A stretch of DNA of 64,000 nucleotides from Methyloversatilis discipulorum (GTDB lineage: Bacteria > Pseudomonadota > Gammaproteobacteria > Burkholderiales > Rhodocyclaceae): the NCBI RefSeq assembly GCF_000385375.1, contig NZ_ARVV01000001.1:496001-560000 (forward strand), read 5' to 3'. Shown here one piece after another: positions 4,527 to 38,276 of this stretch (position 1 is its first letter; each line of letters starts with the position of its first letter). A model generated the notes under the pieces. It was not told the origin of the DNA, searched no databases, and saw only the letters and a list, made by a program, of their open reading frames with translations. A program made the position numbers and the translations under genes.

Positions 4527-4561
4527 TCGCTCCGACCACGCGTCAGGCGCCGTCCCGGGTT

Positions 4562-8875: not shown

Positions 8876-10585
8876 CTATGCCGGCGCCGGAGCATGCGCA
8901 TGGAATGCGCCGTCACCGGTCAGGCGGCCGGCGTCCATCGTGAGCACGCGCCCCATGCGCTCGAAGGCGCGCGGGCGGTGCGCGATCAGGATGACGGTGC
9001 GGCCGGGCGCGTGCTCGCTCATCAGCGCGTCGATCACGCGCGCCTCGGTGTCGGCGTCGAGTGCCGACGTCGCCTCGTCCAGCAGCAGCACCGGTGCGTC
9101 GCGCAGCACCGCGCGCGCGATGCCGACGCGCTGTCGCTGGCCGCCGGACAGGCTGTGCCCCTTCTCGCCGACCGGGCTGTCCAGGCCCTCGGGCAGCAGC
9201 GCGATCACGTCGTCGAGCTGGGCGATGCGGCAGGCGCGCAGCACGTCCACCATGCTCACCTCGCGGCCCAGCGTCAGGTTCTCCAGCAAGGACAGGCTGA
9301 ACAGCTCTGTTTCCTGCGGCACTACCGCGATCTGGTGCAGCAGCGCCTCGTGCCGGATGTCGGCCAGCGGCACGCCATCGACGGTGAGCCGGCCCGATTC
9401 CGGCGGGTAGAGCGCCAGCAGCAGCTTCACCAGCGTGCTCTTGCCCGAACCCGAGCGCCCGGCGATGCCGACGTGCTCGCCGCGCGCGATGCGGAAGTCC
9501 AGTGGCCCGAGCACGCGCCGGCCGTCGTGCGCGAAAGTGAGCGCTTCGGCCTGCAGCGCGCGCCAGTCGGCCGGCCAGTCCTGCGTGCCGTGCTGGCTGG
9601 GCTGCGGCGCGAACAGCGGCATCATGCGGCCGAGGTTGGAAGTGCGTTCGATCATCGTCTGCACGCGGTCGGTCATGTCCATCGACGCTTCGCGCAGCGT
9701 GTTGAAGTAGGCGCTGTAGGTGAGCACCAGGCCAACCGACAATCCTCCTTCCATCACGCCCCAGGCCACGCCGAAGATGTAGATCGCCCAGGCCAGCGCG
9801 GTGTGTAGCTGGAACAGCATCCACTTCGTATTGGTGAGGCGCAGCCGGCGGTAGGCGAAGTCGCGCGCCGCGCGTTCGCGGTCGGCCACGCGGGCCGTCA
9901 TGTCGGCGCCTGCGTTCATCGCCTTTACGGACAGGATGTTGGCCGCGCTCTCAACGAAGCTGCCGCTGGCGTTCTCCATCGACGCGTTGATCTGGTCAGA
10001 CAGCCGCGCGATGCGGCGGTAGAAATACCACTCGATGAAGCCGAGCACGCCGCAGTAGTAGAGGAAGAAGAACACCGTCGCCGGATGCAGCAGCATGCAG
10101 GCGATCAGCGCGCCGAAGAAGGCGCCGCTGGCGGTGAGCAGCGCATTGACCAGTTCGCTGGTCCAGTCGCGCACCGCGTCCGCCCCGGTGATCACCCGCT
10201 GCGCCTTGTTGCCGGTGCTTTCCTTCTGGTGCCAGGCCAGCGAGAAATCGAGCAGCCGCTCGAAGCCCCACACCTTGGCGCGCATGCGCGCATCGATGGC
10301 CATGCGCCCGATTACCCGCTTGGTCGACAGCCGCACCAGCGCCACGCAGGCATGCGCCACGCCCAGCGTGGCCACCAGCGTGTACAGCGGCGCCAGACTG
10401 TCACCGCGCTGCCAGCCGAGCAGGAAATCCGCCACCCGCCCAATCAGGTAGGGCGGCAGCATCGGGTAGAACTGCACCACGCCCAGCACGCAGATGAAGA
10501 ACAGGTAGCGGCGGCGGTCGGCTTCAAGAAAGAAGGCGATCGCGCGCGGGACGTCGGTCAGACGGAAGGCGGGTGGGGCGGACAT
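8876..10585 (-). CDS. ABC transporter half-molecule (TMD-NBD fusion)
   Basis: A 569-residue exporter half-transporter. Residues 1-330 form the six-helix transmembrane domain. The ATPase domain follows, with Walker A GRSGSGKST (about 375-383), signature LSGGQRQR (about 478-485) and Walker B VLLLDEATSALD (about 499-510). It should work as a homodimer in the inner membrane, moving lipids, peptides or drugs outward. The substrate is unknown and no partner gene is adjacent. It is the last recognisable chromosomal gene before the cassette array. Confidence 0.9.
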   Translation of the reverse strand: MSAPPAFRLTDVPRAIAFFLEADRRRYLFFICVLGVVQFYPMLPPYLIGRVADFLLGWQRGDSLAPLYTLVATLGVAHACVALVRLSTKRVIGRMAIDARMRAKVWGFERLLDFSLAWHQKESTGNKAQRVITGADAVRDWTSELVNALLTASGAFFGALIACMLLHPATVFFFLYYCGVLGFIEWYFYRRIARLSDQINASMENASGSFVESAANILSVKAMNAGADMTARVADRERAARDFAYRRLRLTNTKWMLFQLHTALAWAIYIFGVAWGVMEGGLSVGLVLTYSAYFNTLREASMDMTDRVQTMIERTSNLGRMMPLFAPQPSQHGTQDWPADWRALQAEALTFAHDGRRVLGPLDFRIARGEHVGIAGRSGSGKSTLVKLLLALYPPESGRLTVDGVPLADIRHEALLHQIAVVPQETELFSLSLLENLTLGREVSMVDVLRACRIAQLDDVIALLPEGLDSPVGEKGHSLSGGQRQRVGIARAVLRDAPVLLLDEATSALDADTEARVIDALMSEHAPGRTVILIAHRPRAFERMGRVLTMDAGRLTGDGAFHAHAPAPA

Positions 10586-22060: not shown

Positions 22061-23104
22061 TTACTCGGGTTGCGTGCCGGCAGGCAGCACTTCGCCGTCG
22101 TCGAACTTCGACAGCCATTCCAGCGTGGTCGGCTTGTAGCGCACCAGACCCTTGTACTCGGCCAGCTCGTTCGGCAGCGTGCTCAGTACGCGGTGCAGAC
22201 GCTTGGCCCAGCGCGGGTAGGTGGCCAGTTCGTTCATGCTGGCCAGATAGCCGCGGATCGAGAACAGCATGCCGTTGCTGCGCGGCAGGCGGAACAGGGC
22301 CTGCAGTTCGACGCGCAGGTGCACCTTGTCGCCGACGTTGTCCGGCGTGACGCTGGCGCGGTCCGGGCCCCATTCCGGGTAGGTTTCCGGCGAGGTGTCG
22401 AGACGCGGGTTGATGGTCATGGTCCAGTTCAGGCGGCGCACCGGTCGGCCCTGCTGCAGCATCAGCAGGTACTTCAGCGCGCGCTCGAACACGCCCAGCT
22501 CATGCGCCAGCGGCACCGGACCGTGCCATTCCATGAAGCTCATGCCGGCGTCGAACATCAGCGACCAGTCGGCCTGCGAGGTGATCATGCCAGCGTCGGC
22601 GAACAGGTCGTTGTCGCGCTGGTCCATGATGACGAAGTCACCCTGGGTCTGCCGCGTGATGTACTCGAAGGGCGGGCAGGGCAGCGTGGCGGCGTCGCCG
22701 AAGGTGAAGGTCTGCTCGATGCCCAGCGGCTTGTTGATCCAGCTCCAGCGCGCGCCGTCCTTGGCCAGCGTGAACATGTCCGGATAGTCGCGCGACAGCG
22801 ATTCCATGATCAGTTCCAGCGTGTCCCACTCGGCGTCCATCATGTGCGGCAGCGACACGCAGCGGCCCGGGTCGCGCTCCAGCGTGATGGCGCGGTCGCG
22901 CATTTCGGCGATGTAGTGCTCGTCGATGTCGAAGGCGTTCTCGAACACCGAACCTGCAGGCCCCTTGGTGTGCGGCTCCATGTTGACCGAGTACATGTAC
23001 TGGTCCTGATGGAAGGGGAAGGGGAAGCGGCGGATGGCCGCCGGCGAGTTGCGGTAGGTGTAGTCGCCGCGGAAGGTTTCGTCCGGCTTGAATGCGATGC
23101 TCAT
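22061..23104 (-). CDS. Dimethylamine monooxygenase haem subunit (DUF3445, oxidative N-demethylase)
   Basis: A 347-residue protein of the DUF3445 family, known as haem-dependent oxidative N-demethylase with a PAS-like fold. In methylotrophs it is the oxygen-activating subunit that converts dimethylamine to methylamine and formaldehyde. Seen: FPFPFHQDQYMYSVNMEP at the N-terminus, RLNWTMTINPRLDTSPETYP in the middle and RVELQALFRLPRSNGMLFSI in the C-terminal half. Last gene of the four-gene operon, 10 bp after the reductase. The exact dmm letter is used differently in different papers, so no symbol is given. Confidence 0.85.
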   Translation of the reverse strand: MSIAFKPDETFRGDYTYRNSPAAIRRFPFPFHQDQYMYSVNMEPHTKGPAGSVFENAFDIDEHYIAEMRDRAITLERDPGRCVSLPHMMDAEWDTLELIMESLSRDYPDMFTLAKDGARWSWINKPLGIEQTFTFGDAATLPCPPFEYITRQTQGDFVIMDQRDNDLFADAGMITSQADWSLMFDAGMSFMEWHGPVPLAHELGVFERALKYLLMLQQGRPVRRLNWTMTINPRLDTSPETYPEWGPDRASVTPDNVGDKVHLRVELQALFRLPRSNGMLFSIRGYLASMNELATYPRWAKRLHRVLSTLPNELAEYKGLVRYKPTTLEWLSKFDDGEVLPAGTQPE

Positions 23105-24737: not shown

Positions 24738-25856
24738 TCAGCGCTTCTTGTCCGGATGGGTACGCTGGCGCAGCGGGTCGTAGAACGGCGTCGGCACCAC
24801 CAGCGCGGCGAGCTTGCCGGCCTTGCTGGCAATGGTCAGGCGGGTGCCGATGTTCGAATGCGACGGCTTCAGGTGCACCATGGCCAGCGACTGCATCAGC
24901 AGGCGGCTGTACGAGGCCGAGGTGACCACGCCGACTTCCTTCTCGCCGTCATAGACCTTGGCGCCGGCTTCGACCGCTTCGTGGTGCAGCACGGTCATGC
25001 CGGCCTGCTTGGCACGTTCGCGGCCCTTCAGTGCGAGCACGGCAGCCTTGCCGATGTAGTCGCCCTTCTTGTCGAGGTCGACCGCCCAGTCCATGTTCAC
25101 TTCCCACGGCGTGGTGTCGCCTTCCGGCATTTCGAACGGGAAGAACAGCAGCGCGCCTTCGACGCGGGTCAGGTCGAGCGCGGTCCACGAGCAGGGGATG
25201 ACGCCCTTCGGCTTGCCGGCTTCGAGGATGGTGTCCCACAGGAACACGGCGTCGGCCGCGCTGCAGTACACCTCGTAGCCGCGCTCGCCGGAGTAGCCGC
25301 CACGGCCCAGCGTCACCTTCTTGCCGAACAGCGTGGTTTCGACGTGGTTGAAGTAGGGCAGCGCAGCCAGATCGGCCGGCGTGTGCGGGGCCAGCACGTC
25401 GAGCGAAACCGGGCCCTGCAGCGACAGGATGTGCACGTCGAGGTCGGCTTCGACCTTCACGTTCTTGCCGGCAGCCAGTGCAGCCAGCGTCTTCGGCGTG
25501 GCGCCGCTGCCGTGCGAAATGCGGAATTTGTCGGCCGAGTCACGGATGATCATGATGTCGTCGACCAGCGCACCGGCTTCGTTCACTTCGCCGCCGAGGC
25601 GGGCGGTGCCCGGCTTCAGCTTGGTGATGTCGATGGTGACCAGGCGGTCGATCACGGCTTCGGCGTCCGGGCCGGTCACGTTGACGATGTTCAGCGCCGA
25701 CACGTCGTACAGGCCGGCGCGGGTGCGCGTGGCGACGACTTCGTCGTGCGGGCAGCTGTTGTAGCTCCACGGGATCGGCATGTTGTTCCACGTATCGCCG
25801 TCGAGCTTAGAACCGAGCTGGCGGTGCCGCTCGTTCAGTACCGAATTCCTCTGCAT
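24738..25856 (-). CDS. GcvT-like folate-dependent aminomethyltransferase
   Basis: A 372-residue GcvT-family protein from the ATG at 25856, preceded by an AAGGAG ribosome site. It has the tetrahydrofolate-binding fold: RAGLYDVSALNIVNVTGPDAE near 65-90, GGYSGERGYEVYC near 200, and the C-terminal barrel with VGVVTSASYSRLL. In methylated-amine clusters it probably binds tetrahydrofolate and captures the formaldehyde released by demethylation as methylene-THF. It leads the operon that continues with the three dimethylamine monooxygenase subunits. Confidence 0.86.
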   Translation of the reverse strand: MQRNSVLNERHRQLGSKLDGDTWNNMPIPWSYNSCPHDEVVATRTRAGLYDVSALNIVNVTGPDAEAVIDRLVTIDITKLKPGTARLGGEVNEAGALVDDIMIIRDSADKFRISHGSGATPKTLAALAAGKNVKVEADLDVHILSLQGPVSLDVLAPHTPADLAALPYFNHVETTLFGKKVTLGRGGYSGERGYEVYCSAADAVFLWDTILEAGKPKGVIPCSWTALDLTRVEGALLFFPFEMPEGDTTPWEVNMDWAVDLDKKGDYIGKAAVLALKGRERAKQAGMTVLHHEAVEAGAKVYDGEKEVGVVTSASYSRLLMQSLAMVHLKPSHSNIGTRLTIASKAGKLAALVVPTPFYDPLRQRTHPDKKR

Positions 25857-25910
25857 TCCCGGATCTCCTTGTCGTGGGCGTCGCCGCGCTGCGCGGTCGA
25901 TCTGGGACTG

Positions 25911-25939
25911 ATTCTGTTGTCCGGGGGAGGTCGGGACAA
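25911..25939 (-). promoter_or_regulatory. Promoter A of the dimethylamine operon
   Basis: On the minus strand: -35 TTGTCC (25934-25939), 17-bp spacer, -10 CAGAAT (25911-25916). Upstream is the shared 7-2-7 box (25954-25969). Predicted start about 25904, leaving a leader of about 48 nt. Confidence 0.7.
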
Positions 25940-25953
25940 TTCTCAAGAGGGGT

Positions 25954-26535: not shown

Positions 26536-28818
26536 TCAGGCGCGCACGCGGGCCTTGGTCGGGTCGTAGTGCGAGGTTTTCACCTGGGTGGCCTTGATGC
26601 GCTTCTGGTGGCCGTCCAGCTTGCCGATCTCCACCGTGGCACCCAGCTCGACCGCCGACACGTCCAGCCGTGCCAGCGCGATGGTTTTGCCGAGGATGGG
26701 CGAACGGGTGGTGCTGGTGATCTGGCCGATCTGCGCGCGACCGTTGAAGATCGGGTCGCCGTGCGCCACCAGTTCGGTGCCTTCGATGTCCAGGCCGACC
26801 ATGACGCGCGCCGGGTGGGCCTTGCGCCGCTCCAGCGCGGCCTTGCCGACGTAGTCATCCTCCTTGTCGGCCGCCACCGCGAAACCGATGCCTGCCTCGA
26901 ACGGATCGGTCTGATCGCAGAAGTCGTACTCGGCGAAGATGAGCGCCGCTTCGATGCGCAGCATGTCGAGCGCGGCCAGGCCCATCGGCGCGATGCCGTG
27001 CGGCTCGCCGGCCTTCGCGATGGCGTCCCACACCTGCACTGCGTGCTTCGGGTGGCACCAGACTTCGTAGCCCAGTTCGCCGGTGTAACCCGTGCGCGAC
27101 ACGACGACCGGCAGGCCGTCGATCTTGCCCACGGTCAGGCGGAACCACTTCAGTTCGTCCATCGACGCATTGCCCGGCGGCGTGACGACGATTTCGCGCA
27201 GGATGTCGCGCGACTTCGGGCCCTGCACCGACAGGTTGTGCAGCTGGTCGGTGGAGGACTTCACCCACACGCGCAGGTTGTGCTTGGCCGCCAGTTCGCG
27301 CAGCCACACGCCGCAGTAGTCATCGCCGCACACCAGGCGGAAGTTGTTCTGGCACAGGCGGAACACCGTGCCGTCGTCGATCATGCCGCCGTGCTCGTAG
27401 CAGAGCGCGGTGTAGACGATCTGGCCGACCGCCAGCTTGCGGATGTTGCGCGTGGTGGCCAGCTGCAGCAGCTGTTCGGCGTCGGGGCCGGTGATTTCGA
27501 ACTTGCGCAGTGCGGACAGATCGATCATCACCGCGCGTTCGCGGCAGGCCCAGTATTCGTCGATCGGGCCGTTGGACGAGAACGAGTCCTGCAGCCAGAA
27601 GCCGCGGTACTCGACCATGCGGCGGGTGAGCGCGGAGGTGCGGGCGTGGAAGCCGGTTTCGCGCGTGAGCTTGGGGGCGGCGTCGGGCGTCATGCGGTGT
27701 GCGATCCCTTTGGAGAAGTTGTTCGAGGCGTCATAGACCCGCACGTGGATATCCGTCGGGTTCCAGCCGTTGGCCGGGTCGATGTCGTCGGTGCAGGACG
27801 AGGAGGCGCAGACCAGGTCGGTCATCGCGCGCAGCAGCACGTAGTCGCCGGCGCGCGACCACGGTTCGTCCAGGCTGATGCTGTCGTCGTGATTGACGAT
27901 GGTGTTGTAGAAGAAGTTGATCGCCGGCCAACCAGCGCGGCGGGCCACGCCGTGCGGTTCGAGCGCGTTGTTGAAGTTGTCGCTGCAGTTGGCGTGACCG
28001 GGGTAACCCATGTCGTCGTAGTACTTCGCGCTGCACGCCAGCATGAAGGTGTCGTGGCGGCCGACCGTGTCGCGGATCACCTCGACCAGCGGCACCTGGC
28101 GCTCGTCGTAGTACTTGTTCAGCAGGCCGGGGCCGGGGCTGGCCGAACCCATCAGCGTGCGCGTGGTGGTCGGGTCGAGGTCGTATTCCTGGCCCTGCGC
28201 GAGTGCTGCGGCGTCGAAGGCGAGGAAGTCGGAGCACTGGCGGCCGTCGACGTCGATCACCTGTATGTAGTCGCCGGCCTTCACGCGGTAGGCCTGTGCC
28301 GTGCCGGCGGCGATGCGCAGGTCGAGTACCGGCGGGGCCAGCGGCGGCGGCGCGATGCCGGCCACCGGTTCGGCGCACTCGATGTCGGCGATCAGTTCGG
28401 TCGGCGCGTTCTGCGCGTCCGGCTGCATGTCATCGCCCGGCGCGTGCAGTGCGCAGCGCACTGCGCCGGGTGCGGTGACGACGCGCTGGCTGCCCGGCAG
28501 CCCGTCGCTGCCGAACACTTCGGCACAGACCAGGCCCCAGCCGGCCGGTGCACCGCTGAGCAGCGCGCGGGCGAAGCCGGGCACATCGGCCGGGGTGGTG
28601 ACGGGCAGGCCGGGCAGCATGGCCGCGGCGATGCCGTTCGGGCCGGCGACATAGAGCAGCCCCGGCTGCAGGCCTTCGGGGTCGGTCAGCGTGAGGCGGT
28701 CGCCGGCGGCGAGGTCGAAGGACACCGCTGCGCCGCCGAGGGCGACGTGACGGACGTGGCGTGCACGCGTTCGCGCGGCAGTCGCCGGATTCAGCGAAGG
28801 TTCGACGATCGTGTTCAT
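26536..28818 (-). CDS. tdm: Trimethylamine N-oxide demethylase Tdm
   Basis: A 760-residue two-part enzyme converting TMAO to dimethylamine and formaldehyde. The N-terminal half is a DUF1989-like metal-binding domain (DGRQCSDFLAFD, GYPGHANCSDNFN). The C-terminal half is a GcvT-type tetrahydrofolate-binding domain (LQDSFSSNGPIDEYWACRER, then TGYTGELGYEVWCHP near 550). This fusion and length are characteristic of Tdm, which frees formaldehyde and can channel it to folate. It follows tmm by 105 bp in an operon, and the gap holds two strong hairpins. Confidence 0.94.
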   Translation of the reverse strand: MNTIVEPSLNPATAARTRARHVRHVALGGAAVSFDLAAGDRLTLTDPEGLQPGLLYVAGPNGIAAAMLPGLPVTTPADVPGFARALLSGAPAGWGLVCAEVFGSDGLPGSQRVVTAPGAVRCALHAPGDDMQPDAQNAPTELIADIECAEPVAGIAPPPLAPPVLDLRIAAGTAQAYRVKAGDYIQVIDVDGRQCSDFLAFDAAALAQGQEYDLDPTTTRTLMGSASPGPGLLNKYYDERQVPLVEVIRDTVGRHDTFMLACSAKYYDDMGYPGHANCSDNFNNALEPHGVARRAGWPAINFFYNTIVNHDDSISLDEPWSRAGDYVLLRAMTDLVCASSSCTDDIDPANGWNPTDIHVRVYDASNNFSKGIAHRMTPDAAPKLTRETGFHARTSALTRRMVEYRGFWLQDSFSSNGPIDEYWACRERAVMIDLSALRKFEITGPDAEQLLQLATTRNIRKLAVGQIVYTALCYEHGGMIDDGTVFRLCQNNFRLVCGDDYCGVWLRELAAKHNLRVWVKSSTDQLHNLSVQGPKSRDILREIVVTPPGNASMDELKWFRLTVGKIDGLPVVVSRTGYTGELGYEVWCHPKHAVQVWDAIAKAGEPHGIAPMGLAALDMLRIEAALIFAEYDFCDQTDPFEAGIGFAVAADKEDDYVGKAALERRKAHPARVMVGLDIEGTELVAHGDPIFNGRAQIGQITSTTRSPILGKTIALARLDVSAVELGATVEIGKLDGHQKRIKATQVKTSHYDPTKARVRA

Positions 28819-28923: not shown

Positions 28924-30285
28924 TCAGGCCTGCTCGGTCGAGGCCGGCTCGTTCAGGTAGGCCTCGAGCGAGTCGTCCAGCGCCTCCAGCCACGAGGTGT
29001 GGTGCGGCGTGGCCATGGTGCCGGTCATCAGCGAGCGGTAGCACTTGTTGCGGTAGCCCATGATGTCCTCGTACTTGTCCTTCTTCCATTCGAGGAAGGT
29101 CTGGTTGACCTCGGGAATCGGGAAGCTCGGGTAGTCGGTGGCGTCGATCAGGTGCTGGATGTACTTGCCCTGGAATTCGAACATCTGCTGGGCGTCTTCC
29201 AGCGTCAGTTCCTCTTCGCGCCACTTCATGTCTTCGGCGTGCATCTCTTCGTACGACGGCACCGGCAGGCGGCCGAGGATGACGTCGCGCGCGTACCAGG
29301 CCTGGGCGTCGAACATGTTGAAGCTGTACCACTGGTCCTGCATGCCGAGGTACATCAGCTGCGGGTTGTCCTCCCACATGATGCCCTTGTACAGATTGAG
29401 CGGCCACAGGCGGTTGTCGGTCTTCAGGCGCAGTTCTTCCGACAGGAAGGGGAAGTGGTGCTTGTAGCCGGTGCACAGGATGACGGCGTCGATGTGCTTG
29501 CTGGTGCCGTCGGCGAAGTGGGCGGTCTTGCCCTCGACGCGCAGCAGCTGCGGCTTCTCTTCCCAGTTGTCGGGCCATTTGTAGCCCATCGGGTTGGTGC
29601 GGTAGCAGCTGGTGATCGAACGGGCGCCGTACTTGTAGCACTGCGAGCCGATGTCTTCCGCCGAGTAGCTGGCGCCGACGATGAGCACGTCCTTGCCCTT
29701 GAATTCGAGCGCGTCACGGAAGTCGTGCGCGTGCAGCACGCGGCCGCCAAAGGTTTCGAAGCCCGGGAAGTAGGGCACGTTCGGGGTCGAGAAGTGGCCG
29801 CTGGCGACGATGACGTAGTCGAACTCTTCCGAGTAGGTCACGTCCTGGTCGTAGTTGTGCACGGTGACCGTGAACTTCTTGGTCTTGTCGTCGAAGGTGA
29901 CGTTGCGGGCGGCGGTGTTGAAGCGGATGTACTTGCGCACACCGGCCTTCTCGACACGGCCCTTGATGTAGTCCCACAGCACTTCACGCGGGGGGTAGGA
30001 ACCCATCGGGCGACCGAAGTGTTCGTCGAAGGTGTAGTCGGCGAATTCCAGACATTCCTTCGGACCGTTGGACCAGAGGTAGCGGTACATGCTGCCGTGC
30101 ACCGGCTCGCCGTGCTCGTCCAGGCCGGTGCGCCAGGTGTAGTTCCACATGCCACCCCAGTCCGACTGCTTCTCGTAGCACACGATCTCCGGAATGTCGG
30201 CGCCCTTGGCCTGGGCGGACTGGAAGGCCCGGAGCTGGGCCAGGCCGCTGGGGCCGGCGCCGATGATGGCAACGCGCTTCTTCAT
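28924..30285 (-). CDS. tmm: Trimethylamine monooxygenase Tmm
   Basis: A 453-residue flavin monooxygenase oxidising trimethylamine to TMAO with NADPH and oxygen. Seen: FAD motif GAGPSG (residues 9-14), the FMO fingerprint [11 protein letters not shown] near 180, NADPH motif GASYSAED near 205 and [10 protein letters not shown] near 290. The stretch [20 protein letters not shown] and the following [15 protein letters not shown] match bacterial Tmm very closely. First gene of the operon with tdm, read from promoter B after a leader of about 100 nt. An open frame on the opposite strand is a high-GC artefact. Confidence 0.96.
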
Positions 30286-30393
30286 GATCTGTATCCCTCT
30301 TGTGTGGTCCGTTCTGGATACGACCGCGGCATGCTCTCGGCCGCCCGGTCGGTCGCTGGACGTCGTGCATTCGCCGCGTCTCAGGTGCGGCGA

Positions 30394-30422
30394 ATGATGC
30401 GAAGGCGGATCAATGCCCACAA
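30394..30422 (-). promoter_or_regulatory. Promoter B of the tmm-tdm operon
   Basis: On the minus strand -35 TTGTGG (30417-30422), 17-bp spacer, -10 CATCAT (30394-30399). The segment TCCCTCTTGAGAATTGT before and over the -35 is shared with promoters A and D. The weak -10 suggests need for an activator. Confidence 0.66.
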
Positions 30423-30436
30423 TTCTCAAGAGGGAT

Positions 30437-30590: not shown

Positions 30591-30604
30591 ATCCCTTGTG
30601 AGAA

Positions 30605-31798: not shown

Positions 31799-33499
31799 AT
31801 GAGCAGCAATGCGGATGTGATCGGAGCGGCGCCGGTACGGTCGGCCAGCCGCGCCGAAAGTGCTTCACTGCACCGGAAGATCGACTGGACCGGTGCGTTC
31901 TGGGTGGCCAGCGGCGTGCCGGCGCTGGTGCTGTTTTCCATCGGCGCCATCGCCGCCACCGTCGGCAAGCCGTCGTGGATGGTGTGGGCGCTGTCGATCG
32001 GCTTCGGCTTCATACAGGCCTTCACCTATGCCGAAATCGCCGGCCTGTTCCCGCACAAGTCGGGTGGCGCTTCGGTGTATGGCGCGGTCGCCTGGGTGCG
32101 TTACAGCAAGATCATCGCGCCGGTGTCGGTGTGGTGTAACTGGTTCGCCTGGTCGCCGGTGCTCGCCATCGGTTCCGGTCTGGCGGCCGGCTACATCCTC
32201 GGTGCGCTGTTCCCGGCCGATGCGGCGATCAACACCTGGCAGCTGACGCTGGTCGACCTGAGCTTCATCAAGTCCGGGCTCGAACTGCGCATCAACGCGA
32301 CCTTCCTGGTCGGTGTCGTGCTGCTGCTGGCGGTGTTCGGCATCCAGCACGGCGGCATCCTGCGTTCGGCGCGCACGACCATGGTGCTCGGCGTCACCGC
32401 ACTGATTCCGCTGATGCTGATCGCGCTGGTGCCGCTGCTGTCCGGCGACATGCCGTCGACCCACTTCTCGCCGATGGTGCCCATCGCCTACGAGAACGGG
32501 CTGGTGGTGGACGGTGCCTGGAACATGGCCGGCGTCACGCTGATGGCAGGCGGCCTGTTCATCGCCGCGTGGTCGACCTACGGCTTCGAGACCGCTGTCT
32601 GCTACACCCGCGAGTTCAAGGATCCGAAGAAGGACACCTTCAAGGCCATCTTCTACTCGGGTCTGCTGTGCATCGTGGTGTTCACGCTGGTGCCGCTCGC
32701 CTTCCAGGGCCATCTCGGCCTGGGTGAGGTGGTGACGCCGCCGGTGGTCGAGGCGGACGGCACGGTGAGCACGCCGGCGGTCTACAGCGGCATGCTGGCG
32801 CCGGAGGTCTACAGCGGCATGGGCGTGGCCAACGTGATGTCGCACATGGTCGGCGGCGGCGAAGTGGTGGCCAATGTTCTGGTGGTCATGCTGGTGCTGG
32901 CGGTGCTGCTGTCCATCATGACTTCGATGGCCGGTTCGTCGCGCACGCTGTACCAGGCTTCGGTTGATGGCTGGCTGCCGCGCTACCTGTCGCACGTCAA
33001 TGAACACGGCGCACCGACGCGCGCGATGTGGACGGATCTGGGCTTCAACCTGATCCTGCTGCTGATGTCGGACTACGTGTTCGTGCTGGCCTGCTCCAAC
33101 GTCGGCTACATCATGTTCAACTTCCTGAACCTGAACTCCGGCTGGATCCACCGCATCGATCGTCCGGACTGGGAGCGTCCGTTCAAGGCGCCGAAGATCA
33201 TCCTCGGCATCGGTGTCGTGCTGGGCTTCGTCAATCTCGCGCTGATGGGCCTCGGCGCAGACATCTACGGCGCCGGTACGCTGACCGCCGGTCTGGTGTT
33301 CGCGTCCCTGATCATCCCGGTCTTCCTGTACCGCCACTACGTGCAGGACAAGGGCAAGTTCCCTGATGCGATGCTGGAGGACATGCACCTGAACGACCAG
33401 CTGGCGGAAGGCGGCAAGCGTGCCGGCATCCTGCCCTACGTCACGCTGGCCGCTGGCGTCGCGGTGGTGATCATCGCGCACAACATGGCCGTGTATTGA
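31799..33499 (+). CDS. APC-family permease, probable methylated-amine or amino acid transporter
   Basis: A 566-residue inner-membrane permease with about twelve to thirteen helices. The N-terminal helix region DWTGAFWVASGVPALVLFSIG and the IQAFTYAEIAGLFPHKSGGA segment after it are typical of amino acid-polyamine-organocation transporters. The C-terminal tail is soluble and charged before a last helix. Its operon with a porin under a trimethylamine-type promoter suggests uptake of an amine or amino acid product (for example gamma-glutamylmethylamide or methylamine), which is inference. A perfect terminator follows. Confidence 0.85.
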   Translation: MSSNADVIGAAPVRSASRAESASLHRKIDWTGAFWVASGVPALVLFSIGAIAATVGKPSWMVWALSIGFGFIQAFTYAEIAGLFPHKSGGASVYGAVAWVRYSKIIAPVSVWCNWFAWSPVLAIGSGLAAGYILGALFPADAAINTWQLTLVDLSFIKSGLELRINATFLVGVVLLLAVFGIQHGGILRSARTTMVLGVTALIPLMLIALVPLLSGDMPSTHFSPMVPIAYENGLVVDGAWNMAGVTLMAGGLFIAAWSTYGFETAVCYTREFKDPKKDTFKAIFYSGLLCIVVFTLVPLAFQGHLGLGEVVTPPVVEADGTVSTPAVYSGMLAPEVYSGMGVANVMSHMVGGGEVVANVLVVMLVLAVLLSIMTSMAGSSRTLYQASVDGWLPRYLSHVNEHGAPTRAMWTDLGFNLILLLMSDYVFVLACSNVGYIMFNFLNLNSGWIHRIDRPDWERPFKAPKIILGIGVVLGFVNLALMGLGADIYGAGTLTAGLVFASLIIPVFLYRHYVQDKGKFPDAMLEDMHLNDQLAEGGKRAGILPYVTLAAGVAVVIIAHNMAVY

Positions 33500-33554
33500 T
33501 GCAGCTGGGCCGTCGCGCGCTCGCGTGACGGCCGCGGAACGATGTCCGCACTTG

Positions 33555-33601
33555 CCGGCATCGGCCACTCCTGCGGGGGTTGTCGATGCCGGTTTTCTTT
33601 T
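33555..33601 (+). terminator. Intrinsic terminator of porin-permease operon
   Basis: CCGGCATCG (33555-33563) pairs with CGATGCCGG (33584-33592), followed by TTTTCTTTT. It closes the operon and separates it from promoter D. Confidence 0.88.
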
Positions 33602-33633
33602 GGCGTCGCGGTCCCCGGCTGTCCGCGCACGCC

Positions 33634-33649
33634 TACCCAGAATGGCTTA
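33634..33649 (+). promoter_or_regulatory. 7-2-7-like box, promoter D (left half intact)
   Basis: TACCCAG-AA-TGGCTTA: the left heptamer is good, the right is weak. The following 14-bp link and the CTCCCTCTTGAGAATTGTCC element are conserved with the other three promoters. Confidence 0.6.
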
Positions 33650-33663
33650 CTCCCTCTTGAGAA

Positions 33664-33692
33664 TTGTCCGGCCGATGGCGCTTGCTGATAAT
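33664..33692 (+). promoter_or_regulatory. Promoter D (no protein gene downstream)
   Basis: -35 TTGTCC (33664-33669), 17-bp spacer, -10 GATAAT (33687-33692), the best -10 of the four. Predicted start near 33699. No credible coding frame follows on this strand. A strong terminator lies at 33818-33869. Confidence 0.72.
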
Positions 33693-33698
33693 CGTATT

Positions 33699-33869
33699 GC
33701 CCTGCCTGAATCGGCGAATGACGTACTCAGGCGGAGCAAGCGGGAATGCGGGGTGCATTCCCGCCGGATGCGCAAGTCGCGGTGCGAGCGCCGCGACAAC
33801 CAACTCTCCTCACCTTCACCGGCACGTGCAGCCAGCTCCTCCTGGCGAGCACCTGCCGGTTTCTTTTTT
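33699..33869 (+). ncRNA. Candidate small RNA co-regulated with methylamine genes
   Basis: A predicted transcript of about 170 nt from promoter D to an intrinsic terminator. It can fold into a series of hairpins: GCCTGA/TCAGGC (33704-33732), a perfect 10-bp stem GCGGGAATGC/GCATTCCCGC (33740-33764), GTCGCGG/CCGCGAC (33776-33797), and the terminator stem. Between the third hairpin and the terminator lies unpaired CUCUCCUCACCUUC, and the terminator loop holds CUCCUCCU. Both resemble anti-Shine-Dalgarno sequences used by small RNAs to block ribosome sites. No open frame inside looks coding. It was not seen experimentally, so this is inference from promoter, structure and terminator. Confidence 0.6.
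33818..33869 (+). terminator. Terminator of the candidate small RNA
   Basis: ACCGGCACGTGC (33818-33829) pairs with GCACCTGCCGGT (33849-33860) with one mismatch, then TTTCTTTTTT. The loop contains a smaller GCCAG/CTGGC stem with UCCUCC exposed. It converges with the end of the gene at 33893. Confidence 0.85.
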
Positions 33870-33892
33870 CAGGTCTGCGTTAAGGGCTGCGC

Positions 33893-36007
33893 TCAGGTCT
33901 GCGGTGCGGCCGGGCTGAAACAGCTCAGGCGCAGCAGCTCTTCGGGCCGCACCGGTCGGCTGAACAGATAGCCCTGCAGGCGGTGGCAGCCGAGTTCGGT
34001 CAGCTGCGCCAGCTGCCCCGGCGTTTCCACGCCCTCGGCGACGACTTCCAGCCCCATGCTGTCGGCCAGCGAGGTGATGGCACGCACGATGGTGACGGCG
34101 TCGGAACTGCTGCGCAGCTGGCTCACGAAGCTGCGATCGATCTTCAGCGTGCGCACCGCAAAGCGCATCAGATAGGCGAGCGACGAGTAGCCGGTGCCGA
34201 AATCGTCGATGGCGAGGCTGATGCCCATGGTGTCGAGCGCGCCGAGAATGTCGGTGGTGCGCGGGATGTCCTCCATCAGCGTGCTTTCGGTGATTTCCAG
34301 TTCCAGCATGCGCGGATCGACACCGGCTTCCTGCAGCGCGCTGGTGATGTCGCTCACCAGGTCGTCGTCGCGCAGCTGCCGGCCCGACAGGTTGAAGGCG
34401 AGGTGCAGCTGCGGCTGTGTCGCCTGCAGCATGCGCAGGTCGCGCAGCGCTTCGCGCAGCGACCAGCGGCTGACCGGCACGATGAGTCCGGTCTCCTCCA
34501 GCAGCGGAATGAAGCGGTCGGGCGGCACTACGCCTTCGGTCGGGCTGTTCCAGCGCAGCAGCGCCTCGACCGTCGCCACGCGGCCGGTGCGGGTGTCGAT
34601 GATGGGCTGATAGACGAGGAAGAACTCGCGCCGTTCGAGCGCGCCGTGCAGCGCGATCTCCGCCGACAGCTCGGTGTGCGCGTGCGCATCCATGCTCTGG
34701 TCGTAGAAGCGCACCGTGTTGCGGCCCGCCGCTTTGGCGCGGTACATCGACAGGTCGGCACGGCTGAGCAGTTCGTCGACCGAGTGTCCGTTCTCCGGAA
34801 ACAGCGCGACGCCGACGCTGGCGCTGACGAAGAACTCGCGCCCCTGCACGCGCACGCCTTCGGCAAGCGCCGCCAGTATCTTTTCCGCGATCTCGGTGAC
34901 TGCGGCGCGGTCACCGGTCTCTTCCAGCAGCACGGTGAACTCGTCGCCACCCAGTCGTGCCACCGTGTCGGAGGCGCGCACGCAGCCGCGCAATCGTGCC
35001 GCCACTTCGGTCAGCAGTGCGTCGCCGACGCTGTGACCCAAGGTGTCGTTGATCACCTTGAAGCGGTCGAGGTCGATGAACAGCACGGCCAGCGGGCACT
35101 CGGTGCGCATGGCGCGGCGCATGGCCTGGCGCAGCCGGTCGGTGAACAGCCGGCGGTTGGGCAGATCGGTCAGCGCGTCCATGCCAGCCAGATACTCCAG
35201 CTGGTCCTGCGCGCGGATGCGTTCGCTGACGTCGCGCGAGGTGGCAACGTAGTGACTGATCCGTTGCTGCGCGTCGCGGATCGGGCTGATCGTCTTCTCT
35301 TCGTGATAGAGCTCGCCGTTCTTGCGCCGGTTGGTGAACACCATGCGGAACACCTCGCCGCTGCGCAGTGCACGCCACAGCCGGGCATAGACGTCGGGGC
35401 CATGCAGGCCCGATTTCAGCAGGCCGGGCGAGCGCCCCAGCACTTCTTCGGCGGAGTAGCCGGTACTGCGCTCGAAAGCTGGATTCACGTACTCGATCAG
35501 GCCGCCGGCACAGGTGATCAGCACCGCATCGCCGGCCTGGTGCGCCGCGCGCGCCAGCAGGCGAAGCTCGCGCTGCGCGGCGTCCTCAGGCGTGCCGTGG
35601 CTCACGCGCAGCAGCCAGTCGCCGGCCGCGTCGCCGGGCAGGCGGGCGCACTCGACACAGACGGCTTGTCCGTTGTCGCACAGATGCCAGACGTGGCGGC
35701 TCACGTCGCCGCCGCTGTCCGCGCAGAAAGATGGCCAGTGCGAGCAACCGTCGTCGTCGAGTTCGCGGAACAGGGTGTGTACCGCCCGGCCCTGGACAGG
35801 GGGCAGTGTGTCGGGCCAGCCGATCTGGTGCAGGACGCGGCCGTCACCGGCAAGCCGCAGCAGTGCGACCGGCGCCGATTGCGGCGCGTCGCCGACCGCC
35901 GCGGCGAAGGCGTCCGGGAAGGAAACGTGCTGCGTGCATGGCATATCCATGGCGCTGCAGCTGAACAGTGCGGAAACGACGGCCATCGTGCATCCCCCGG
36001 TCTTCAT
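33893..36007 (-). CDS. PAS-GGDEF-EAL cyclic-di-GMP protein
   Basis: A 704-residue signalling protein. Order: an N-terminal sensor region without clear signal peptide (1-145), a PAS domain (about 150-265), a diguanylate cyclase domain with GGDEF intact (353-357) and an I-site RASD five residues before it, then an EAL phosphodiesterase domain (EAL at 481-483, with NLSGRQL, EITES, DDFGTGYSSL, KIDRSF and VAEGVE all present). Both catalytic sets look intact, so the balance of synthesis and breakdown is unknown. The start could also be the ATG 21 bp downstream. No partner gene. Confidence 0.93.
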   Translation of the reverse strand: MKTGGCTMAVVSALFSCSAMDMPCTQHVSFPDAFAAAVGDAPQSAPVALLRLAGDGRVLHQIGWPDTLPPVQGRAVHTLFRELDDDGCSHWPSFCADSGGDVSRHVWHLCDNGQAVCVECARLPGDAAGDWLLRVSHGTPEDAAQRELRLLARAAHQAGDAVLITCAGGLIEYVNPAFERSTGYSAEEVLGRSPGLLKSGLHGPDVYARLWRALRSGEVFRMVFTNRRKNGELYHEEKTISPIRDAQQRISHYVATSRDVSERIRAQDQLEYLAGMDALTDLPNRRLFTDRLRQAMRRAMRTECPLAVLFIDLDRFKVINDTLGHSVGDALLTEVAARLRGCVRASDTVARLGGDEFTVLLEETGDRAAVTEIAEKILAALAEGVRVQGREFFVSASVGVALFPENGHSVDELLSRADLSMYRAKAAGRNTVRFYDQSMDAHAHTELSAEIALHGALERREFFLVYQPIIDTRTGRVATVEALLRWNSPTEGVVPPDRFIPLLEETGLIVPVSRWSLREALRDLRMLQATQPQLHLAFNLSGRQLRDDDLVSDITSALQEAGVDPRMLELEITESTLMEDIPRTTDILGALDTMGISLAIDDFGTGYSSLAYLMRFAVRTLKIDRSFVSQLRSSSDAVTIVRAITSLADSMGLEVVAEGVETPGQLAQLTELGCHRLQGYLFSRPVRPEELLRLSCFSPAAPQT

Positions 36008-36169: not shown

Positions 36170-36802
36170 CTACTGGCCGGCGCCGGCCCTCGGCGTGCCG
36201 CCGCCGAGCGGCTGCATCATGTCCTTGGCGACGTCCTCGATGCGCCGGCGCTGAGCGCGGGCGGTCTTGCGCAGCATTTCGAAGGCGGGCTGGCGATCGA
36301 TGCGCAGGCGCTCCATCAGGATGCCGACGGCGATGCTGATTTCGCGACGCTCGTCGAGGGCGCGCTGCAGGTGCTGCCCGGTACTGCGCAGCTGGCGCAG
36401 CTCTTCCGAGCGCGCCAGTGCGGTGCGCAGCGTGGGCAGCAGCTGTTCGACGTCGAGCGGCTTGACCAGATAGGCCAGCGCACCGCGCTCGATGGCGCTG
36501 CGCACCCGACCCGGGTCGCCAAAGGCGGTCAGGAAGATCAGCGGCAGGCTGTGGTGCTCGCGCAGCACCGCCGCGAACTCGAGCCCGGTCATGCCCGGCA
36601 GCTTCTCGTCGAGGATGACCAGATCGATGCGCGTCGTCCCGAGCAGCGCCAGCGCCTCTTCGGCCGAGCGCGCGACATGGACGCCGTAGCCGTGAGCGCG
36701 CAGCCCGTCGCCCAGCGTGGCTGCGTTCAGCCGGTCGTCCTCAACCAGCAGCAGTTGCGGGCTGGTGTCGTCGTATGTGTGCATGGTCGCGGGTCTCGTC
36801 AA
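36170..36802 (-). CDS. ANTAR-domain response regulator
   Basis: A 210-residue protein with an N-terminal receiver domain (LLLVEDDRLN, phospho-acceptor aspartate in VILDEKLPGM near 65, lysine in YLVKPLD) and a C-terminal ANTAR domain (about 140-190: REISIAVGILMERLRIDRQP and the following RKTAR). ANTAR domains bind paired RNA hairpins and prevent transcription termination, as in AmiR, NasR and EutV. It overlaps the kinase gene upstream by 44-62 bp, so the start is at 36802 or 36784. Its RNA targets are unknown here. Confidence 0.93.
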   Translation of the reverse strand: MTRPATMHTYDDTSPQLLLVEDDRLNAATLGDGLRAHGYGVHVARSAEEALALLGTTRIDLVILDEKLPGMTGLEFAAVLREHHSLPLIFLTAFGDPGRVRSAIERGALAYLVKPLDVEQLLPTLRTALARSEELRQLRSTGQHLQRALDERREISIAVGILMERLRIDRQPAFEMLRKTARAQRRRIEDVAKDMMQPLGGGTPRAGAGQ

Positions 36803-38276
36803 ACGTAATGATGGGCGGCCGCAGCGCGAGGCGCGTCAATACGCGTCCCGGCTGCTGGCGAAAATCCAGTGTGGCGTGCTCGGTCGGCAGCAGTGCGGCC
36901 AGCAGTTCGAGGCCCTGGCCGAGGCCGCGGCGTGCGGCGAAATCGAAGCCGGGCGGCAGCTCGCCACCGTTGCCGATGACGATGAGTGCGCCGTCGTCGT
37001 CCGTCGACAGTTCGACGTCCACGCCGGCGTCGCGGTCGACCTGCCGGTGCTTGACCGCATTCATCAGCAGTTCGTTGAGCACGATGGCCAGCGGCACCGC
37101 TTCGCTGTCGGCCAGACGCAGTTCGAAGGCGCTGAGGTCGTGCACGTCGAGCTTCACCCGGGCGTCGAACAGGCCTTCGATGCTGCCGGCAATCATGCGC
37201 AGGAATTCGCCGAGCTGGACCGGGGCGCCGGCCTGACTGCCCTGCAGCTCGTGGATGACGGCGATCGATCGAACTTGGCTGATGGCGCCGGTCAGCGCGT
37301 GGGCGAGCGCCGGGTGTTGTCCGGCGCAGCGACGCAGCAGTCCGACCACGCCCTGCAGGCTGTTCTTGATGCGGTGGTGCGCCTCACGCACCAGCGTTTC
37401 GCGCTGCCGCTCGGCCTGCGCCAGCCGGTGAGCCTCGGCTTCCTTGCGCGCCGTGATGTCCTCGGCGACACCGGCCACGCGTGCATGGCCGTCCTGCGCC
37501 TGCCACGGAAAGGCGCGGCAGTGCAGCCAGCGCAGGCCGCCATTGCGGTCGGCGACGCGTACCTCGACTTGCGCTACCTCGCCCTGCGCCTGAGCGGCGA
37601 GAAAGGCTTCGAAACGCGATCGGTCGGGTGGTGCCACCGCTTGTGCCCAGCCGTTCAGATCGCCCGGGTGCTCGCCGTTCGGCAGTGCGCTGATGTCCGA
37701 AAAGGCCGGGCTGGCGTAGTACAGCGCACGCGTGTGCGGATCGCTGACCCAGAAGATTTCGCGGATGTGTTCGGCCAGCAGATAGAAGCGCTCCTGCGCT
37801 GCACGCAGTGCGGCCTCGGCCTGCTTGCGTTCGCGGATGTCGCGCACGACCGCGATGACCGCGGGCCCGCCGGCGAACTCGATGCGCGAGCCGACGACTT
37901 CGACCGCGACCGTTTCACCGTCACGGGTGAGCGCCACGCCATCGAGGTAACGCGTGCTGCGCTTGATCGCCAGCTCGTCGAAACAGGCCTGGACGCGCGT
38001 CTCCTCGGACGGCGGGTAGAGCATGGATACGTGCTTGCCGGCGACTTCGGCGGGGCGGTAGCCCAGCAGTTCGCTTGCCGCGCCGTTCATGTGCATGATC
38101 ACGCCGCGCGGCGTCATCAGAAGCAGCGCGTCGGCGATGCCCTCGAACAGCTCCGGGAAGGCGGGGATGCCTATGGCATCAGCGTCGCGCTCACTCTTCC
38201 CCGGTCGCGTGCCCGCGACCTCGCCGCCCGGAAGGCCCGGTGCGGGTGCTGCTGGGAATGCAAATTCGCGAACCAT
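36741..38276 (-). CDS. PAS-PAS HisKA_2 sensor histidine kinase
   Basis: A 511-residue cytoplasmic kinase. Two PAS domains (about 40-155 and 165-290), then the HisKA_2 phospho-acceptor motif REAHHRIKNSLQGVVGLLRR near 305, then an HATPase domain with VLNELLMNAVKH and a late GLGQGLELL. No membrane segments, so it senses an internal signal, perhaps redox, gas or a small ligand bound by a PAS domain. It precedes and overlaps the ANTAR regulator, which is the likely partner. HisKA_2 kinases often pair with ANTAR regulators. The stretch 38277-38631 upstream has no recognised element. Confidence 0.9.
   Translation of the reverse strand: MVREFAFPAAPAPGLPGGEVAGTRPGKSERDADAIGIPAFPELFEGIADALLLMTPRGVIMHMNGAASELLGYRPAEVAGKHVSMLYPPSEETRVQACFDELAIKRSTRYLDGVALTRDGETVAVEVVGSRIEFAGGPAVIAVVRDIRERKQAEAALRAAQERFYLLAEHIREIFWVSDPHTRALYYASPAFSDISALPNGEHPGDLNGWAQAVAPPDRSRFEAFLAAQAQGEVAQVEVRVADRNGGLRWLHCRAFPWQAQDGHARVAGVAEDITARKEAEAHRLAQAERQRETLVREAHHRIKNSLQGVVGLLRRCAGQHPALAHALTGAISQVRSIAVIHELQGSQAGAPVQLGEFLRMIAGSIEGLFDARVKLDVHDLSAFELRLADSEAVPLAIVLNELLMNAVKHRQVDRDAGVDVELSTDDDGALIVIGNGGELPPGFDFAARRGLGQGLELLAALLPTEHATLDFRQQPGRVLTRLALRPPIITFDETRDHAHIRRHQPATAAG

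Follow-up and report, generated by a model that had tools for sequence, protein, structure and literature searches.

The window that we analysed is a stretch of 64,000 nucleotides from the genome of Methyloversatilis discipulorum (G000:C1:496001-560000; the source genome is 4.25 Mb in a single contig). It holds curated-model matches for trimethylamine monooxygenase (tmm), TMAO demethylase (tdm) and a TMAO permease, the last preceded by a TorF-type porin gene, together with a dimethylamine-type gene and a two-gene regulatory pair (Table 1). Behind the permease, at 33634-33869, there is very probably a gene for a small RNA. The permease gene carries a terminator of its own, a 9-bp hairpin followed by a T-tract at 33555-33602, as the original prediction had claimed for the upstream operon; we recognised it by direct reading, and it is absent from the list of a simple terminator scan. 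The prediction was also right that no protein gene follows the RNA's promoter: the next gene, of c-di-GMP phosphodiesterase type (33893-36007), is convergent to the RNA gene, and the open reading frames and gene models of the window include no plus-strand gene behind the unit.

Table 1. Features of the RNA gene and its surroundings, in window coordinates
Feature	Position	Strand	Basis or remark
HODM-type N-demethylase subunit (dimethylamine-type gene)	22061-23104	minus	model match
TMAO demethylase (tdm)	26536-28818	minus	curated model
Trimethylamine monooxygenase (tmm)	28924-30345	minus	curated model
TMAO permease, upstream of the RNA	31799-33499	plus	NF053774, 863.6 bits, cut-off 690
Terminator region of TMAO permease	33537-33605	plus	weak R2 match, 24.6 bits
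Heptamer-type inverted-repeat box, TACCCAG-AA-TGGCTTA	33634-33649	plus	second half off-pattern
CTTGAGAATTGT element	33656-33667	plus	common to tmm and tdm/dmm promoters
-35 TTGTCC, 17-nt spacer, -10 GATAAT	33664-33692	plus	
Small RNA gene, predicted transcript of ~170 nt	33698-33869	plus	fold, kept base pairs
Hairpin 1	33698-33738	plus	weak inner part holds the one broken pair
Hairpin 2	33740-33764	plus	perfect 10-bp stem
Hairpin 3	33776-33797	plus	G-C to C-G exchange in G001 at 33779:33794
Conserved 3' module	33799-33872	plus	matched by R1 and R2
Unpaired CU-rich motif CUCUCCUCACCUUC	33804-33817	plus	anti-Shine-Dalgarno motif 1
Terminator hairpin, hexaloop CUCCUC (33836-33841) closed by CAG/CUG	33818-33860	plus	anti-Shine-Dalgarno motif 2
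T-tract of intrinsic terminator	33860-33869	plus	
ANTAR-type response regulator	36170-36802		ANTAR domain confirmed
PAS/HisKA_2 kinase	36741-38276		HisKA_2 domain confirmed

The promoter of the RNA gene shares much of its build with the amine promoters around it. At the tmm, tdm/dmm and porin-permease promoters, an inverted repeat TACC...GGTA is followed by YCCYNNTGAGAATTGT and then by a -10 box, and the heptamer-type repeat is well formed at all three; the sRNA promoter retains the second part and the -10 box, and its right repeat half reads TGGCTTA. The original prediction had given it the same arrangement as the amine promoters, and this stood for the shared element and for TTGTCC-N17-GATAAT but not for the second half of the heptamer box. 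The CTTGAGAATTGT element occurs without mismatch at 33656-33667 on the plus strand and at 25936-25947 and 30419-30430 on the minus strand, and with two mismatches at 30597 (plus strand) in the porin promoter; at up to two mismatches there are five matches against 1.63 expected, a number reached in 3 of 100 shuffles. TTGTCC-N16..18-GATAAT occurs a single time in the 64 kb (expected 0.00), and the same site is the sole sigma-70-like one within 33400-34000, from which transcription would start near 33698. Because of its TGGCTTA half, the sRNA promoter is missing from the matches in this genome to a pattern built from the good boxes (up to two mismatches), which comprise the other three amine promoters and a universal-stress-protein gene. 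This half recurs in the sRNA promoters of three relatives (G001, G004 and G005), which makes it look like a kept feature rather than decay. The universal-stress-protein-like gene, named by eye, has an amine-type box and a TGAGAATTG promoter (G000:C1:4025844-4025894; L002, and L041 near 9860-9920) that are present in G001 and G004 too. A LuxR/NarL-type regulator, also recognised by eye, lies behind the TMAO permease in G003, G007, G009, G011 and G012 (L221-L225) and is a candidate reader of the heptamer boxes.

Between 33698 and 33872 the RNA is predicted to fold at -84 kcal/mol (z -4.18; as low in 0 of 200 shuffles) into three hairpins followed by a CU-rich stretch left unpaired and by a terminator hairpin whose loop is CUCCUC, and the terminator scan lists the terminator at its end, with 0.5 expected by chance. 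The perfect 10-bp hairpin and its companions, the exposed CU-rich motif and loop, and the closing U-tract that had first drawn attention to the region are all present. Among 61 genomes searched at the DNA level, G004 (97%) and G001 (91%) have the whole region, G006 has the 3' module in three places, and G005 has the promoter part followed by the module, the 5' part of the RNA being different there. Identity to G001 is 92.0% over the RNA, 78.6% over the spacer before the promoter, 62.5% over the segment after the RNA (33861-33892), and 90.8% and 81.5% at third codon positions of the flanking genes; the motif 1 stretch (33801-33817) is 100% identical in both G001 and G004. Hairpin 3 with its flank is 80.0% identical in G001 with all pairs kept. 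Eight pairs vary among G000, G004 and G001, and seven of them still pair, including the exchange of G-C for C-G at 33779:33794, while the broken one lies inside hairpin 1. Conservation of the hairpins outside the strain had been set as a check on the original prediction, which passes it because the RNA is kept in relatives with compensating changes. By sequence, the unit has the promoter, the intrinsic terminator, the conserved structure and the lack of a coding frame that mark a stand-alone sRNA gene.

The last 74 nt of the RNA form a module, consisting of single-stranded CUCUCCUCACCUU and then the terminator hairpin with its loop CAG[CUCCUC]CUG, for which we built covariance models from seven (R1) and ten (R2) sequences. 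Ten strong copies (E 2.4e-19 to 4.1e-14; next match 0.0119) are found in 5 of 13 genomes of the genus: two each in G000, G001 and G005, one in G004 and three in G006, the second copy of G000 being in the methylamine locus at G000:C1:408662-408736 (L036:8663-8737). The other eight genomes have no strong copy, and seven to eight of the genus's species manage without one. Seven weaker matches came up in the same search (E 0.0119 to 0.92), and none of the four inspected is module-like. Every one of the ten copies retains the loop CUCCUC and its closing CAG/CUG (CGG/CUG in two), the CAG/CUG always paired among the aligned ones. In the alignment of nine distinct copies 92.5% of 107 cells are paired, versus 23-41% with slid partners, and 0 of 500 shuffles reach the module's percentage paired, its cells with double changes or its covariation score. 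The number of pairs with double changes is reached by 129 of 500 shuffles and is thus not above them, further pair types are reached by all 500, and pair 30:59 is unpaired in five sequences; judged from the alignment, structural support for the module is real but modest. The methylamine-locus copies have a shorter motif 1 (GUCCUCACCUU), which is predicted to be partly paired in G000 and G001 at least.

Beyond the genus the module thins out quickly in searches whose strict filters lose weak matches. R1 at E <=0.1 matched 13 of 121 relatives, namely the five with the ten strong copies and eight with weak matches only (one in the genus, seven elsewhere); none of these eight was convincing when read by eye, except possibly G063 (E 0.002). 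R2 at E <=0.01 matched 4 of 399 genomes of the order, one of them the window's own and the other three not convincing on inspection. G063, from another genus of the same family, has a weak module-like terminator with CUCUUCUU and a ACCUCCUC loop (L022 1501-1563; L034 43-105); the two matches are probably one place, because they and their flanks are identical and lie at contig ends.

All ten strong copies adjoin methylated-amine genes. Stand-alone copies with their own promoter lie behind the TMAO permease gene in G000, G001, G004 and G005. G006 carries two TMAO-permease-like genes in tandem (92.6% and 79.5% identity to the window permease; G006:C16, L037 12576-16487), each followed directly by a module copy that forms the 3' end of the permease mRNA; the second gene also has a palindromic box and a promoter-like sequence to itself. 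The remaining four strong copies are in the methylamine cluster, immediately ahead of a TorF-type porin gene. By gene models, this cluster in G000 comprises a type III glutamine synthetase, glutamate-synthase-like subunits, the porin and a quinohemoprotein amine dehydrogenase; its genes were recognised by eye in G005 and G006, and in G001 the adjacent porin start alone was read. Six of the eight module-less genomes of the genus (G002, G003, G007, G009, G011 and G012) have a permease 92-95% identical that ends in a plain terminator. Permease terminators score weakly with the module model in G000 (24.6 bits; window 33537-33605), G004 (27.0 bits; L227 5181-5249) and G007 (17.6 bits; L222 6414-6486), suggesting a permease 3' end as the ancestor of the stand-alone gene; going by its sequence, the window's permease terminator is possibly a degenerate relative of the module. 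Plain terminator, 3'UTR module, stand-alone gene and second-locus sibling all occur within the genus, a natural series for tracing how a substrate-linked sRNA arises.

These placements bear on what the module does. It could be a strong intrinsic terminator and nothing more, serving to end transcripts and shield their 3' ends, with no function in trans for its CU-rich parts; the window copy would then sit behind a promoter that is weak or orphan. The two G006 copies behind permease genes, the methylamine-locus copies between operon and porin gene, and the weak scores of plain permease terminators would all suit such a role. However, a terminator needs neither a conserved loop nor an unpaired 5' motif, yet CUCCUC and its closing pairs are kept in 10 of 10 copies; the same permease ends in a plain terminator in six species; and in the window the permease already has a terminator while the RNA unit has a promoter. 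We consider this explanation unlikely. A role in cis is less probable still: the methylamine-locus module would be a partial terminator that meters the permease-operon transcript into the porin gene, and the window copy would be a relic or free leader. The position of four copies just before a porin start invites this idea, but no gene lies behind the window copy, which is well conserved, and no same-strand gene was seen right behind the stand-alone copy of G005.

ANTAR decoy sRNAs occur in other bacteria, and the ANTAR and HisKA_2 domains confirmed next door raise the thought that the RNA is a protein-binding decoy for that regulator, or for another RNA-binding protein. The known hairpin signature of ANTAR targets is a six-base loop whose first base is A and whose fourth is G; compared by eye, the CUCCUC hexaloop does not fit it, and a similar regulator reading frame, again recognised by eye, stands behind the permease in G002, which lacks the module. 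We regard a decoy as very unlikely. A short mRNA encoding a small protein is scarcely credible, since the long open frame across this stretch (33525-33971, GTG start) starts upstream of the promoter and continues through the terminator, the changes in G001 mostly keep base pairs and the 5' part is different in G005.

Our preferred reading is a small RNA that acts on ribosome-binding sites, and both unpaired stretches, motif 1 and the loop, are complementary to Shine-Dalgarno sequences. Runs of at least 7 nt matching motif 1 occur in 18 of 302 ribosome-site windows versus 4 upstream and 3 coding windows (302 each), and runs of at least 7 nt matching the loop in 9 of 302 versus 0 upstream and 1 coding, for gene starts taken non-randomly from the window, L036, L041 and 20 other stretches, several of them picked to include pattern matches. 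One sampled stretch, L279, was chosen for eutR and also holds eutB and fliN. Shuffled versions of motif 1 reach a mean of -6.71 kcal/mol (30 shuffles, sd 0.60, lowest -7.80) versus -7.73 for the real motif, so that CU-rich composition explains much of the preference for ribosome sites.

The longest matches to motif 1, of 9 nt each, are at fliN (named by eye) and eutB (PF06751). An EutR-like regulator, whose best model is EutR at 184 bits, below the cut-off of 319, matches motif 1 over 8 nt and the loop over 8; so does a 117-aa gene without NCBIfam family before the methylamine-locus permease, and a dehydrogenase of the PQQ methanol/ethanol family matches over 7 and 8 nt, respectively. Within the trimethylamine locus, matches are 4 nt at tmm, tdm and the permease, 6 nt at 24738-25946 and 7 nt at 22061-23104. 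The site of the 117-aa gene is identical in G005 and again 8 plus 8 in G006, and G001 has a matching site at the corresponding place, assigned by position. Across the five carriers, the sites measure 8-9 nt at eutB, 7-8 plus 8 to the loop at eutR and 8-9 at fliN. In G002, which is without the module, they measure 7, 7 plus 8 to the loop, and 8; given these near-equal sites, we claim no target. The gene eutB is found in 5 of 5 carriers versus 1 of 8 non-carriers, a difference that shared ancestry could explain. At fliN (L279 near 4535-4560; orthologues L292-L296), an unusual GGUGAGG ribosome site complementary to the sRNA is present in six of six species, G002 included. As hypotheses, the most plausible targets by sequence would be mRNAs of competing amine or carbon use, namely those of eutB, the EutR-like regulator, the 117-aa gene and the PQQ alcohol dehydrogenase, although that the ethanolamine genes are among the RNA's targets is something we rather doubt.

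Taken together, promoter elements, structure, terminator, conservation of both motifs and location among amine genes, as established by sequence and comparison, identify an sRNA gene that is uncatalogued, its mechanistic kind already known but its genetic setting new. We favour the interpretation, with some reserve, that this is a gene of the methylated-amine regulon for a small regulatory RNA, which represses mRNAs through their ribosome sites. A promoter like those of tmm, tdm and the porin-permease operon would make a transcript of ~170 nt during growth on amines. Three hairpins would form its 5' part, and its last 70 nt would expose two CU-rich stretches, the unpaired CUCUCCUCACCUU and the CUCCUC of the terminator loop. 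The RNA would probably be cleaved down to the 3' module, and the two stretches would pair with the purine-rich Shine-Dalgarno sequences of other mRNAs and block their translation; such anti-Shine-Dalgarno pairing in trans seems to us somewhat the likelier mode of action. If the RNA works as proposed, methylotrophs would control their use of trimethylamine and methylamine at the post-transcriptional level as well. In a more speculative scenario, which we hold to be improbable as a whole, this anti-Shine-Dalgarno family would have begun as 3' ends of amine-permease mRNAs, gained an amine-regulated promoter and a sibling in the methylamine locus, and together its members would impose a hierarchy of amine use, switching off the use of ethanolamine (eutB, eutR) and the oxidation of other carbon during demethylation of methylated amines.

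Public RNA-seq exists for a Methyloversatilis strain, M. universalis FAM5, grown on methanol or on methylamine (GSE63822, as cited in PMC5023235). In M. universalis FAM5 on methylamine, N-methylglutamate genes were up 6.6- to 12.8-fold and the listed qhp genes ~10-fold, with q-values that were high for all but one (PMC5023235). That study is silent on the amine RNA because annotated frames were counted (PMC5023235).

The RNA is undescribed, as originally proposed, in that Rfam contains nothing relevant at its position at gathering or permissive thresholds; in searches of open-licence paper listings, neither this RNA family nor any sRNA tied to methylated-amine oxidation turned up. CcsR-type sRNAs of Rhodobacter have CU-rich loops. 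By their description they are also alike in being UTR-derived, with a 3'UTR origin like that of the G006 copies, but they belong to the Alphaproteobacteria and to a stress context, and the likeness implies no relation. Closer in kind are NmsRA and NmsRB of Neisseria meningitidis, which repress through both of their anti-Shine-Dalgarno regions (PMC5362039). Compared by layout alone, these RNAs, from another betaproteobacterium, likewise have two UC-rich anti-Shine-Dalgarno stretches, of which the first is unpaired between stem-loops and the other lies in a loop, and more than one copy per genome. In its predicted fold the window copy has the same two unpaired UC-rich stretches complementary to Shine-Dalgarno sequences. 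Unlike the NmsRs, whose reported targets are TCA-cycle mRNAs (PMC5362039), the amine RNA has its copies in two separate amine loci and its second motif in the terminator hairpin.

The double-hairpin RNAs of Burkholderia, ncS03/05/27/62 (RF02278), are similar in having CU-rich unpaired stretches complementary to ribosome sites, a terminator hairpin and several copies per genome (PMC5688073). A true RF02278 member is present in 13 of 13 genomes of the genus (66.7-68.6 bits, gathering score 50), and the module shares the word CUCCUCCU with it. RF02278 RNAs have two hairpins after motif 1, as the genus copy folds, whereas the amine module has one. Up to E 10 the RF02278 model matches nothing in 33500-33900, nor any of the other nine copies of the module, and among the 11 listed of this genome's 12 matches in a whole-genome search (E up to ~8) none falls at either copy. 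In local alignment to this genome's RF02278 copy, 640 of 2000 shuffles do as well as the window copy and 123 of 2000 as well as the methylamine-locus copy, so neither aligns better than shuffles. For these reasons, we judge from sequence and analogy that the amine RNA works like the RF02278 and NmsR RNAs and is not a member of RF02278. A second RF02278-like RNA, with a CU-rich 5' end and two hairpins, occurs at G000:C1:843810-843874 (L316) and in most genomes of the genus at 34-38 bits, below the gathering score.

S17 of Bordetella offers a further parallel. S17L and S17S of Bordetella pertussis repress transporters and regulators through ribosome sites, and S17S is cut by RNase E and described as closely similar to the double-hairpin RNAs (PMC11722255, a preprint). 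Like the predicted amine RNA, S17 is a promoter-driven RNA, of ~190 nt, whose 3' 70 nt have a C/U-rich 5' end and a terminator. S17 adjoins coq7 in Bordetella, and the RF02278 copy of G000 at G000:C1:3961974-3962038 (L301) lies ~0.8 kb from coq7 with one gene between; this separate copy is evidently the S17 orthologue, which sets the amine RNA apart. The idea that the amine RNA blocks ribosome sites therefore fits betaproteobacterial RNAs that have been studied, the NmsR, double-hairpin and S17 RNAs, and the kind of RNA is a known one.
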